Source of the DNA: a virus
Strand: one strand, 5' to 3'
IMG/VR virus record: IMGVR_UViG_3300032288_000983
Location: 1-28,971 of that record
DNA: 28,971 nt
Shown here piece by piece: positions 19,860 to 28,875 of this stretch. Made by a program: the position numbers and the translations under genes. The first letter of the stretch is position 1. Each line of letters starts with the position of its first letter. Under the pieces are notes generated by a model. It was given only the letters and a program-made list of their open reading frames with translations, did no database searches and was not told the origin of the DNA.

Positions 19860-21082
19860 TTGTAACCTCCGCGAAAGGTTCGCCAGTTTCTGCGTGAATT
19901 GCTATTTTGCCTGTGAAATCCTGCCAGCGCTTCACAATCACATCGCAATACTTCGGGTCGAGTTCCATCAAGCGAGCGACGCGGCCGTTCTTCTCGGAAG
20001 CGATCAGGGTGGTGCCAGAGCCTCCGAAGCTGTCCAGGACTTGGTCGCCGCCTTTGGTGTTGTTCAGGAGCTGATACTCGAATAGGGCCACCGGCTTCAT
20101 GGTTGGGTGCTCTCCGTTGCGGGATGGCTTCTCGAACTCCAGGATGGTGGTCTGCTTGCGGTCGGCTGCCCAGAGGTGCCCGGCTCCCTCTTTCCAGCCG
20201 TACAGGCACGGCTCGTGCTTCCAGTGGTAGTCCTGGCGTCCCATGACCATGCTGGACTTCTTCCAAATCAGGCACTGGCGGACTTTCCAGCCTGCGTCCT
20301 GGGCAGCGCCTCGGAAGTTGTAGCCCTCGGAGTCTGCGTGCCAGATATAGAACACCGCGCCGGGCTTCATCACAATGTCGGCTGCCGTGTAAGCATCTCG
20401 CAAGAACTGGCGGAACTGATCGTCGCCCATCTCGTCGTTCTTGATCTTGAGCGCGTCCTTGGTCTTGCCCTCATAGGCCACGTTGTAAGGTGGGTCGGTC
20501 AGCCACATGTCGACTAGCTGGCCATCGGTGAGCTTTTCCAGATCGCTGACGCTGGTGCTGTCGCCGCACAGAAGGCGGTGCTTACCCATAACCCAAATGT
20601 CGCCGGGCCGGGTGCGCGGGTTCTCGGGCAGCGGTGGGGCATCGTCGGGGTCGGTCAGGCCTTCGGTGCCAACGGGTGCCAGCAGATCCTTGATCTCGTC
20701 CAGATCAAAGCCGGTCAGCTCGAGGTCGAAACCAAGCTCCTGCAGGTCGGCAAACTCAACCTTCAGCATTTCGGTGTCCCAACCGGAGTTCAGCGCCAGC
20801 CGGTTGTCGGCAATCACATAAGCGCGTTTTTGCGCGTCGGTCAGGTGGTCGAGTCGGATGCACGGCACGTCGGTCAGGCCCAACTTGCGTGCAGCAAGCA
20901 CTCGGCCATGTCCGGCAATGATGCCCCCCCCCCGCGTCAATCAGCACCGGATTGGTGAATCCAAATTCCTTGATGGATGCCGCAATCTGTGCCACCTGCG
21001 CATCCGAGTGCGTCCGGCTGTTGCGTGCATAAGGGATGAGCGAATCGATCTGGATGGCTTCGAGTGTGTCTGGAAGTTTCAT
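19843..21082 (-). CDS. ParB-like domain fused to beta-class DNA methyltransferase, frameshifted in a G10 tract
   Basis: One gene in two frames. From ATG 21080-21082 (MKLPDTLEAIQIDSLIPYAR) the ParB/Srx-type domain reads ..GFTNPVLIDAGGG, then ten G at 20924-20933 move it out of frame and it ends near 20756. The next frame continues exactly as expected: GGGIIAGHGRVLAARKLGL, then a methyltransferase with DPPY (WLTDPPYNVAYEG, motif IV) before FGGSGTT (motif I), the order of beta-class N6-adenine/N4-cytosine enzymes. With nine G the product would be 412 aa. The lesion falls in the ParB motif. It precedes terS, overlapping it by 17 bases. The role may be protection from host restriction or marking of phage DNA. 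Whether this is error, mutation or slippage control is open. Confidence 0.85.
20924..20933 (-). repeat. Ten-base G homopolymer inside the ParB-methyltransferase gene
   Basis: Ten C on the given strand, ten G in the coding strand. It encodes the Gly-Gly-Gly of the ParB motif DAGGGIIAGHGR. Nine G keep the frame; ten break it. Runs of this length are prone to replication and transcription slippage, and also to sequencing error. Confidence 0.95.
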
Positions 21083-25049: not shown

Positions 25050-25238
25050 ATGATGCAAGACGACTTTTACATAAACGCGGTGGACGGCAATGCCGCCATC
25101 GTCAGCCAAAACGAGGAGCACATCTCGCTTGGTGTGCACATCCGAGGCGGAAGCTGCCGCATAGACCTGACGCCAGCGCAGGCCCAGGAACTGATCAACG
25201 CAATAACCCAGACTTTGAACCAGGAGACAACAGCATGA
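25050..25238 (+). CDS. 62-aa early protein of unknown function
   Basis: First gene of the rightward operon. ATG at 25050-25052, with AAAGG five bases upstream. Product: MMQDDFYINAVDGNAAIVSQ, then HISLGVHIRGGSCRIDLTPA and a short C-terminal helix (AQAQELINAITQTL). Alternating beta strands followed by a helix suggest a small folded domain. It overlaps the ERF gene by ATGA, so the two are translated together. No family recognised. Confidence 0.75.
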   Translation: MMQDDFYINAVDGNAAIVSQNEEHISLGVHIRGGSCRIDLTPAQAQELINAITQTLNQETTA

Positions 25239-25813
25239 AAGAGATCGCCGCCGCATTGGTCAAGGCCCAGAAAGCCTTTGGCCCAGCCCTCAAGACAAAA
25301 ACAAACCCACACCTCAAAGCAAAGTATGCCGACCTTGGCGACTGCATCGAGGCTGTGATCGATGGCCTGAACAACAACGGCATCGCCCTGATGCAACAGA
25401 CGCACGAATGCGAATCTGGCGTCCTGGTGGAAACGGTCTTCATCCACGAATCTGGTGAAACGTACTCGGCCGGCAAGTTCCACGTTCCAGCCGTCAAGCA
25501 TGACGCCCAAGGGTACGGCAGCGCCCTGACCTACGCACGCCGCTACAGCCTGATGGCCGCCTGCGGTATCGCCCCAGAGGACGACGACGGCCAAGCCACC
25601 AGCAAGAAAACACCAAAGCAGCTGGACGGTTATCCAGAATACGAGGCCGAGACACTTCCAGCCATGCGAGAAGCCGCGCTGCAGGGCAACGAAACGCTGG
25701 TCTCAGCGTTCCAGGCTTTGCCCAAGTCGGCACACAAGGCCGCATTCTGGCAAGCCCAAGGGCCAGCCCTCAAAAAGGCCGCCAAGGCCGCAGACGAGCA
25801 GGTGGCAGCATGA
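25235..25813 (+). CDS. erf: ERF-family single-strand annealing protein
   Basis: 192 aa. Family signatures: HLKAKYADLGDCIEAVIDGL with GIALMQQ (27-55), GYGSALTYARRYSLMAACGI (93-112) and EDDDGQAT (115-122), as in the P22 Erf family. The C-terminal part (about 125-192) is variable, with charged helix at the end. Erf proteins form rings on single strands and anneal complementary DNA, working with the exonuclease and SSB encoded next to it. AGGAG eight bases before the ATG; ATGA overlaps at both ends. Confidence 0.93.
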   Translation: MKEIAAALVKAQKAFGPALKTKTNPHLKAKYADLGDCIEAVIDGLNNNGIALMQQTHECESGVLVETVFIHESGETYSAGKFHVPAVKHDAQGYGSALTYARRYSLMAACGIAPEDDDGQATSKKTPKQLDGYPEYEAETLPAMREAALQGNETLVSAFQALPKSAHKAAFWQAQGPALKKAAKAADEQVAA

Positions 25814-26436
25814 GGGTCATCACCGCAGATCAAGGCACCGAAGAGTGGAAGCAGGCACGCGTCGGTGTTCCATCCGGCTCAAAGTTCAGCGACATCATGG
25901 CCAAAGGTGGAGGAGCAACCCGCGCCACTTACCTGACCGCCTTGGCCTTGGAGCGCATCACCGGAGTGCGCGAAGAGTTCAAGACAACCTTTGCAATGGA
26001 TCAGGGCACCGAGCGCGAGCCGTTTGCCAGGCTTGCCTACGAGGCCAGCACCGGCCAGCTGGTCACCGAGATCGGCTTCTGCATGCACGACACGCTGCAG
26101 GTCGGTGTCAGCCCTGACGGCCTGGTTGGCAAGGTCGGGATGACCGAATACAAGTGCCCGATGCCAAAGACCCACCTAGAGTATTTGCGGCTTGAGCCAG
26201 GCAAGTGCCCGACGGCTTACCGCTGGCAAGTGCAGGGCCAGCTTTGGGTGGCCAAGCGCGAATGGTGCGATTTCGTGTCCTACAACCCAGATTTTCCAGA
26301 AAACGCCCAGCTCATCATTCGCCGGGTGATGCGTGACGAGAAGGCCATCAAAGAGCTGGAGATCGAGGTGCTCAAGTTTCTTGGGGACATTGAGCGCGAG
26401 GTCGAATTCATCCAGTCTTACAAGGATGCAGCATGA
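25810..26436 (+). CDS. YqaJ/lambda-exonuclease-family 5'-3' exonuclease
   Basis: 208 aa. N-terminal TADQGTEEWKQARVGVPSGS, MDQGTEREPFARLAYE (E70), then the catalytic core VGVSPDGLVG (D103) and MTEYKCPMPKTH (E113, K115), and YRWQVQGQLWV (Q140, Q142). This matches the PD-(D/E)xK recombination exonucleases (YqaJ / lambda Exo). It would resect double-strand ends to make substrates for Erf. Overlaps erf by ATGA. Confidence 0.93.
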   Translation: MRVITADQGTEEWKQARVGVPSGSKFSDIMAKGGGATRATYLTALALERITGVREEFKTTFAMDQGTEREPFARLAYEASTGQLVTEIGFCMHDTLQVGVSPDGLVGKVGMTEYKCPMPKTHLEYLRLEPGKCPTAYRWQVQGQLWVAKREWCDFVSYNPDFPENAQLIIRRVMRDEKAIKELEIEVLKFLGDIEREVEFIQSYKDAA

Positions 26437-26699
26437 ACACACAACCAGAAGCCCTGCGGATGGCCGAGATGCTCATGATGAGTCGTCACCACATTGACCA
26501 CGAGGCCGCAGCAGAACTGCGCCGCCTTTTTGAGTTGGCGCATGAACAGCACTCGGAAATCTACGGGCTGCGACTTCAGGTGCGTAATTTAACTGCAACA
26601 CTAAAGCAGATACGCGCAATGTGCGCCGACTTCGGTGCATACACAGCGTGCGATGTGGCAAGTGCAGCAATTGAAAAAGCAACAGGAGATCAAGCATGA
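26433..26699 (+). CDS. 88-aa helical early protein
   Basis: Starts MNTQPEALRMAEMLMMSRHH and consists largely of predicted helix with heptad-like hydrophobics (AAAELRRLFELAHEQHSEIY, LQVRNLTATLKQIRAMCADF), suggesting a coiled coil. Small proteins of this type are frequent in phage recombination operons; no function known. Overlaps the exonuclease gene upstream and the next gene downstream as GCATGA. Confidence 0.75.
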   Translation: MNTQPEALRMAEMLMMSRHHIDHEAAAELRRLFELAHEQHSEIYGLRLQVRNLTATLKQIRAMCADFGAYTACDVASAAIEKATGDQA

Positions 26700-26983
26700 A
26701 AGGCCGCGACCTCCGAGACGCTGGCATCGCTGCCGTGTCCATTGGCCGAGAGGACTGGATTGCCAAGGCACGCGACATGGCCATCTGGATTGCCAAAGAG
26801 TCTGGCCAAGTGAGCATCAACGACGTCCGGCATTTGATCGACTTGCCGGGCGATTACCACCCAAGCACTTGGGGTGCTGTTTTCAAGAGCAAAGATTTCG
26901 AGGCAGTCGGTTACTGCCAAGCCACCCACCCATCGGCCCACGCTCGGGTCGTTCGGGTTTACAAACTGAAGGAGCAAGCATGT
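26696..26983 (+). CDS. 95-aa winged-helix-like protein; stop codon altered
   Basis: Begins MKGRDLRDAGIAAVSIGRED and runs through WIAKARDMAIWIAKESGQVS, VRHLIDLPGDYHPSTWGAVF, GYCQATHPSAHARVVRVYKL. A helical start, a helix-turn-helix-like middle and the HPSAHARVVRVY end resemble a common phage family with winged-helix character, function unknown. The expected end is EQA followed by TGA in a GCATGA junction, but position 26983 is T, giving TGT; as written, the frame runs to a stop at 27470-27472, through ssb in the wrong frame. The end given here is the inferred ancestral stop. Confidence 0.75.
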
Positions 26984-27396
26984 AAGCACAAGGATTGGCA
27001 CGCATCGGCAAAGACGCCGAGGTGCGATTTACACCAGGCGGAACGGCCGTGGCCAACGTCTCGCTGGCGTTCACCTACGGCAAGAAGGGCGACGATGGAA
27101 AGCGCCCGACGCAGTGGGTCGATGCCTCAATCTGGGGCCAACGCGCCGAGCCGATGGCACCTTACCTGCTCAAGGGCAAGCAGATCGTGGCGTACCTTGA
27201 GGACGTGCACCTGCAGACCTACACCAAAGGCGACGGCACGCAGAACACCAAGATGGTGGCACGCCTGGCTGATCTTGAGTTTGTGGCTGGTGGCGAACAG
27301 GCAAGCAGTCAGCCAAAGCAGCAGCCAAAACCACAAGCAGCACCACAGTCGCAAGGCTCAGGCTTTGACGGCATGGGCGACGACATTCCATTCTGA
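26980..27396 (+). CDS. ssb: Single-stranded DNA-binding protein with TAA at codon 2
   Basis: About 138 aa if intact. The AAGGAG five bases before ATG 26980-26982 marks that as the start, but the next codon is TAA (26983-26985), followed in frame by AQGLARIGKDAEVRFTPGGT, the correct SSB N-terminus. The OB-fold body continues VANVSLAFTYGKKGDDGKRP, PTQWVDASIWGQRAEP, YLLKGKQIVAYLEDVHLQTY and TKMVARLADLEFV, with a Gln-rich linker and the acidic tip GDDIPF that binds partner proteins. Translation could start at TTG 26995-26997, lacking a positioned RBS. An A at 26983 would give MKAQGLARIG and restore the upstream stop. Partner of Erf, exonuclease and NinB. Confidence 0.85.
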
Positions 27397-27405
27397 GGAG
27401 ACAAC

Positions 27406-27912
27406 ATGGAAGAGCAACAACCAAAGCGGCCACCGTTTAAGGTGTCTGGGTCGGCAGCGATCAAGCACCTGAACGTGCGCAAGGAAGGCCCAGACGAAGA
27501 GAAGATTCTGGCCGTGGACATCAAGATGGAGATAAAAGGCATCGACAAGGCGCTGTGCGGGTACTTTGACGACGCCCTGGAGGCCTTCTTGTGGCGAGGT
27601 GATACCAACGCCATGATCGTCCGCAATCTCTGGCTGACGCCGGTGCAGTACGGCAACCTGGTGTCGTCGGCCACGGCGGAGATCGGAAACCAGACGTTTG
27701 TCGGTGCTGAGATCAAGAAGTTCAGCATCGCACCGCGTGACGGTGGCGTAATCGCGCTGACCTGCAGCGTGACCATCTACCCCACCGCGCAAGAAGTCTC
27801 GCAGCTGGCCAAGCTGGTGCAAGACGAAACCCGTGTCCTTCTTGAAGGGCCACCAGACCTTTTCGATTCATCAACCACAACGGAGCAACCATGCACGAAC
27901 AACGTCAACTGA
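27406..27912 (+). CDS. 168-aa early protein of unknown function
   Basis: GAGGAG before the ATG, nine bases after ssb. Starts MEEQQPKRPPFKVSGSAAIK, then a beta-rich body (KILAVDIKMEIKGIDKAL, GYFDDALEAFLWRG, VRNLWLTPVQYGNLVSSA, GAEIKKFSIAPRDGGVIALT) and a variable C-terminus. Genes of this size and opening follow ssb in other phages, so an accessory role in recombination or replication is plausible but unproven. Its end overlaps the next gene by 22 bases. Confidence 0.75.
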   Translation: MEEQQPKRPPFKVSGSAAIKHLNVRKEGPDEEKILAVDIKMEIKGIDKALCGYFDDALEAFLWRGDTNAMIVRNLWLTPVQYGNLVSSATAEIGNQTFVGAEIKKFSIAPRDGGVIALTCSVTIYPTAQEVSQLAKLVQDETRVLLEGPPDLFDSSTTTEQPCTNNVN

Positions 27913-28127
27913 CTTTTGGAGAAAAGGCCGTCGGCCTGACATTCAACCCAAGCGGAGACCCAACGGTCGAAGCCATCAAACGCAAGTGCGCAGACCTGAT
28001 CGACGAGATTCACGAACTGCGCACCAATCAGCCAAACGCTGAGATCGCACGAATGGCGAGTTTGGCCATCACTGAAATTCAGGCTGGCCAGATGTGGGCA
28101 GTCAAAGCAGCCACTTGGAAATTTTGA
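27891..28127 (+). CDS. Probable Acb2/Tad1-type cyclic-nucleotide sponge
   Basis: 78 aa, GGAG five bases before the ATG. The pattern LTFGEKAVGLTFNPSGDPTV, IKRKCADLIDEIHELR, and a helical end EIARMASLAITEIQAGQMWA with VKAATW is one I know from small phage proteins placed in the Acb2/Tad1 hairpin-domain family. Members such as Acb2 and Tad1 trap cyclic oligonucleotide or cADPR-type signals and block CBASS or Thoeris immunity. The family assignment is from memory of the sequence type; many members are untested and may lack binding. It overlaps the 168-aa gene and lies nine bases before the next. Confidence 0.6.
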   Translation: MHEQRQLTFGEKAVGLTFNPSGDPTVEAIKRKCADLIDEIHELRTNQPNAEIARMASLAITEIQAGQMWAVKAATWKF

Positions 28128-28136
28128 GGAGCAACC

Positions 28137-28364
28137 ATGAGCACACGCATCTACCTGGTCACCGACGTGGAGACCAACAAACACCGCCTGATTCGCGCAG
28201 GCAACCAAGCGCAGGCCATCCGGCACGCCGCCCAGACCCGATTCGACATCGAGGTGGCTGGCCAGGACGATCTGGTGAGCCTGCTGACCAGTGGTATTCC
28301 GGTCGAGATGGCTGGCGCTGGCGCCACGGTTGACATGTTTGAAGAAGCGCAGGAGGCAGCATGA
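28137..28364 (+). CDS. 75-aa phage protein of unknown function
   Basis: GAGGAG before the ATG. Starts MSTRIYLVTDVETNKHRLIR, then AGNQAQAIRHAAQTRFDIEV and ASQ/AGQDDLVSLL-type sequence: beta, helix, beta, a small folded domain often seen in phage early operons. No function is known to me. Placed between the sponge candidate and the RyR-domain gene, in a cluster that may serve host takeover or anti-defence, by association only. ATGA overlap with the next gene. Confidence 0.75.
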   Translation: MSTRIYLVTDVETNKHRLIRAGNQAQAIRHAAQTRFDIEVAGQDDLVSLLTSGIPVEMAGAGATVDMFEEAQEAA

Positions 28365-28726
28365 AAAACGAACAAATCGCACGCGTGTGCCACGAAGTGA
28401 ATCGCGCTTACTGTCAGGCGCTTGGTGACATGAGCCAGCCAGCATGGGAAGACGCGCCACAGTGGCAGAAAGACAGCGCCATGCTTGGCGTCAAGTTGCA
28501 CACCGAGAACAACGTCGGGCCAGAAGCAAGTCATGAGAGCTGGATGGCTCAGAAGGTCGCAGATGGTTGGGTGTACGGGCCGACTAAAGACCCAGAAGCA
28601 AAAACGCATCACTGCATTGTTCCATTTGACATGCTTCCACGCGAGCAGCAGGCCAAGGACTTCATCTTCCGCGCTGTGGTGCACGCCCTGCGCCAAACAG
28701 CACCAGCAACAGAGGTTTCAGCATGA
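28361..28726 (+). CDS. RyR-domain protein
   Basis: 121 aa, almost entirely one RyR repeat: IARVCHEVNRAYCQALGD, PQWQKDSAMLGVKLHTEN, ASHESWMAQKVADGWVYGPT (W61, W70, Y72), DPEAKTHHCIVPFDMLPRE and QQAKDFIFRAVV. RyR repeats form helical hairpins first described in ryanodine receptors and occur in many phage and bacterial proteins, where they may bind ligands or proteins. The function in phages is not settled. ATGA overlaps at both ends tie it to the operon. Confidence 0.85.
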   Translation: MKNEQIARVCHEVNRAYCQALGDMSQPAWEDAPQWQKDSAMLGVKLHTENNVGPEASHESWMAQKVADGWVYGPTKDPEAKTHHCIVPFDMLPREQQAKDFIFRAVVHALRQTAPATEVSA

Positions 28727-28875
28727 CCGCCGGCAATAAACGCCAATACGTGACCGTCCGCCTGCCTGACGACATCATGGCCAAGCTCAAAGCCGAGGCC
28801 GAGCGCAACACCCGCAGCCTGTCTGCCCAGGTGCTGCATTACCTGAAGCAAGGCCTGGAAAAGGTGAAAGCATGA
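28723..28875 (+). CDS. Arc-like ribbon-helix-helix regulator
   Basis: 50 aa. RQYVTVRLPDDIMAKLKAEA gives the beta strand and first helix of a ribbon-helix-helix, and TRSLSAQVLHYLKQGLEK the turn and second helix, as in Arc/Mnt. A dimer should bind DNA with the strand residues; early-operon location suggests it represses this operon or another phage promoter. Too short to have a further domain. ATGA overlaps before and after. Confidence 0.8.
   Translation: MTAGNKRQYVTVRLPDDIMAKLKAEAERNTRSLSAQVLHYLKQGLEKVKA

Follow-up and report, generated by a model that had tools for sequence, protein, structure and literature searches.

The phage contig analysed here carries an in-frame TAA as the second codon of its ssb gene, and this raises the question of whether the stop is part of a regulatory arrangement, a real lesion of the gene or a fault in the assembled sequence. 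The record is a virus contig of 28,971 bases, classed as linear, and its whole length is referred to below as the window. The phage carries P22-type coat, portal and stabilisation proteins as well as NinB, and the neighbours of ssb in the operon were recognised by Pfam as an ERF annealing protein (PF04404) and a YqaJ-type exonuclease (PF09588). The features on which the question turns are the following:

26696..26983, plus strand: upstream gene, function not assigned (phrog_27658); its normal stop overlaps the ssb start and is TGA in the 43 relatives with the junction
26969..26974, plus strand: AAGGAG, the ssb ribosome-binding site, 5 nt before the ATG; kept in most relatives
26980..27396, plus strand: ssb, encoding the single-stranded-DNA-binding protein; frame interrupted only by the TAA at codon 2; C-terminal end GMGDDIPF
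26983..26983, plus strand: private base T, through which the upstream gene loses its stop and ssb codon 2 becomes TAA; A in 74/74 aligned relatives
26984..27472, plus strand: continuation of the upstream frame across ssb, a chance opening; 13 to 212 codons in relatives
26995..26997, plus strand: TTG, proposed restart codon; not conserved

The stop/start junction upstream of ssb

At window positions 26978-26985 the letters are GCATGTAA, so that the ATG at 26980-26982 is followed directly by TAA at 26983-26985, while TGT at 26981-26983 occupies the position expected for the stop of the upstream frame. All seven other junctions of the operon (25233, 25808, 26431, 26694, 28359, 28721, and 28870) read GCATGA and are in this respect like the ATGA stop/start overlaps of translationally coupled phage genes, whereas the ssb junction has lost the overlap through one base; beyond 24900, GCATGT occurs only once in the window. 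The first-pass annotation of this DNA, made from the letters, had described the altered junction, the seven regular ones, the placement of AAGGAG and the TAA at codon 2, and each of these points was borne out. It had also stated that the upstream frame stays open for 163 codons further. Counting from the TGT this is correct, and the resulting ORF (26696-27472) encodes 258 aa. Because the length of the run-on past TGA varies from 13 to 212 codons among relatives, we regard its opening as accidental. A meaningful fusion of the upstream protein with the SSB region was considered and rejected for the same variation.

An intact SSB reading had been claimed to follow the TAA, and this was confirmed by profile searches. 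The open reading at 26986-27396 matches the OB-fold profile PF00436 with an E-value of 2.2e-11 (44.2 bits vs. a curated cut-off of 26) and phrog_44 with an E-value of 1.4e-26, and phmmer aligns it with PDB SSB chains of bacteria. The acidic C-terminal tip expected of an SSB is present. A continuous frame from the conserved start is found in 74/74 relatives, and the TAA interrupts it in the window only. As judged from its sequence, the SSB is without decay: the frame is open up to the tail, 62% of the ssb differences from relatives lie at third codon positions, and besides the stop there is one private amino-acid change. It shares the common OB fold, the operon neighbours and the acidic DDIPF tail with the phage SSB family (PF00436, phrog_44) of Erf/YqaJ-exonuclease operons; the private codon-2 stop of this contig is the only difference.

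The ssb start in relatives and alternative readings of the stop

With the SSB reading as query, 80 loci were retrieved from viral_contigs, and 74 of these align to the first SSB residue. The ATG is followed by AAA in 70 of them and by AAG in 4, and none (0/74) has TAA. The six more distant loci have different starts, and their genes are also intact. These counts uphold the premise of the first-pass annotation that one base breaks a stop/start overlap which is intact in relatives, and the observation that would have told against it, relatives likewise carrying ATGTAA, was looked for and made in no case. For programmed recoding or a conserved start-stop regulation we asked if the stop is kept among relatives, and it is kept in none of the 74. 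When 2.9 million viral contigs, from which records very near the window have possibly been left out, were scanned for exact copies of GGAGCAAGCATGTAAGC, there were 0 matches. Megablast found no close phage records in GenBank, and bacterial genomes yielded a single distant match with 35% identity.

The ATG AAA start and its own ribosome-binding site are kept in relatives with quite different upstream sequence (L005, L022, L046, and L056). Since the start persists even where the upstream sequence differs, we take ATG 26980 as the true ssb start. An SSB start elsewhere was rejected, as the ATG AAA/AAG and the ribosome-binding site are retained in these same loci. Within the scope of these comparisons, T26983 is a private, isolated single-base change in one contig of a P22-like phage, and it is part of no conserved mechanism.

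Restart of translation at TTG 26995 had been put forward as a way around the stop. This explanation takes the T as real and has ribosomes restart after ATG-TAA, so that SSB continues to be produced, minus its first five residues. An in-frame TTG does lie 10 nt past the TAA codon, and bacterial ribosomes are known to re-initiate close to a site of termination. However, 65 relatives have CTG as codon 6 and only 2 have TTG, next to 3 with ATT, 4 with TTT and 3 that are unaligned there, and both relatives with TTG have an intact ssb start, so the codon is not under selection as a start. CTG prevails at this position, so the TTG lacks conservation as a start; nor is it a compensatory change made in response to the stop. 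Its spacing to both purine-rich stretches is also poor; AAGGAG is ~20 nt away, while an AAGGA directly abuts the TTG with no spacer. Finally, the match to E. coli SSB begins at query residue 6 and chain residue 13, so the residues removed would belong to the first OB-fold strand of SSB structures, which again argues against a restart. As an evolved feature the restart is thus not supported, and synthesis of such a shortened SSB appears very unlikely. We give still less credence to a lineage in which low-level restart after ATG-TAA is the only source of SSB and the upstream protein is extended.

Recoding of TAA to a sense codon in this phage is more improbable again, to the point of being negligible. 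The open frame after the TAA is consistent with it, and nothing further points that way. On the other side, TAA is an ordinary stop that terminates 8 of the conserved window genes (TGA ends 33), and no tRNA genes were found within the window; recoding was rejected because of these two observations. In addition, relatives encode Lys at ssb codon 2, and reading the TAA as sense would leave the stop of the upstream gene unrestored.

Integrity of the contig and a poly-G methyltransferase gene

The window was aligned with 19 larger relative contigs and with all the loci. Within 26850-27120, T26983 is the sole base shared by no relative. Private changes were counted in conserved genes, at columns with full agreement among the relatives (at least 12). 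The window departs from them at 39 invariant columns, 24 times silently and 15 times not, and T26983 is the sole nonsense change; the remaining 38 consist of the 24 silent and of 14 ordinary amino-acid changes. In a screen for broken frames, done by known gene frames, every clearly conserved gene of the window apart from ssb and the methyltransferase gene described below was intact. At the junction the closest relative is G006 (L030), which agrees with the window at 147/150 bases upstream and 143/150 downstream. An assembly chimera at the junction is not supported, given that the same relative is the closest on both flanks.

The operon (25235-28875), compared with the loci L002-L073, is strongly mosaic; the closest relative (up to about 95%) changes by gene, and small genes of the recombination operon are exchanged in and out at ATGA junctions. 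One product of this operon, a 121-aa protein encoded at window 28361-28726, matches the RyR domain (PF02026, E 1e-10).

The methyltransferase gene lies on the minus strand from 19843 to about 21080, and in the window its frame is broken by a ten-G run at 20924-20933. The in-frame copy in contig G002 has ParB_N and N6_N4_Mtase domains according to Pfam. A pattern scan for the tract region gave 42 stretches (L120-L161), and the counts were made on distinct contexts. Runs of 8 to 14 G occur in 30 distinct contexts, window included, 18 of them in frame and 12 out; the chance probability of at least 18 of 30 contexts being in frame is 0.002. Alleles without a long G run are in frame in 8/8 cases. 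From this distribution, the poly-G tract looks as if it switched a phase-variable phage DNA methyltransferase on and off by slippage, with homopolymer assembly error as the alternative. A non-exhaustive search of the literature found such tracts in bacterial methyltransferases and no phage example. To us this observation looks more interesting than the ssb stop.

Origin and meaning of T26983

We attribute T26983 to an error in the consensus of the contig, with a probability of roughly 60%. The base would have been miscalled, or amplified at low coverage, while the contig consensus was made, and the phage population itself would keep an intact ssb. Uniqueness of the base, integrity of the rest of the gene and conservation of the preceding ATG as the start are shown by the comparisons above; that the base is an error, and not a fresh mutation, is what we infer. 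We prefer the error because loss of the gene is seen in 0/74 relatives and because nothing downstream has decayed. Yet the contig shows no other obvious load of errors and no chimera at the junction, which counts against a consensus error, and a single real mutation would give an identical sequence picture.

It is possible, though less probable, and we keep it as a second explanation, that T26983 is real, either as a very recent nonsense mutation in the lineage or because assembly happened to pick up a defective genome or molecule. No other gene of the contig is broken without explanation, which gives no obvious sign of a high error rate, and both flanks of the junction match one closest relative. 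Set against this, the complete lack of gene loss among the relatives suggests that loss is not often tolerated, and the downstream ssb bears no sign of decay. Should the lesion be real, a possibility to which the same reserve applies, SSB would be lost or strongly lowered, the upstream protein would carry a nonsense tail, and the host SSB may substitute. The first-pass annotation had offered three options, an assembly error, a real knockdown of ssb and the restart at TTG 26995; its interpretation of the site as a lesion is correct as far as the sequence goes.

There is nothing unusual about the ssb stop: it is an error or a mutation private to this contig, no mechanism underlies it, and beyond annotation its significance is slight. 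A gene caller would overlook where ssb begins and call the upstream ORF as a fusion of 258 aa, which would be wrong for the phage group. If T26983 is real after all, it would suggest that the phage SSB is dispensable, presumably as the host supplies one.
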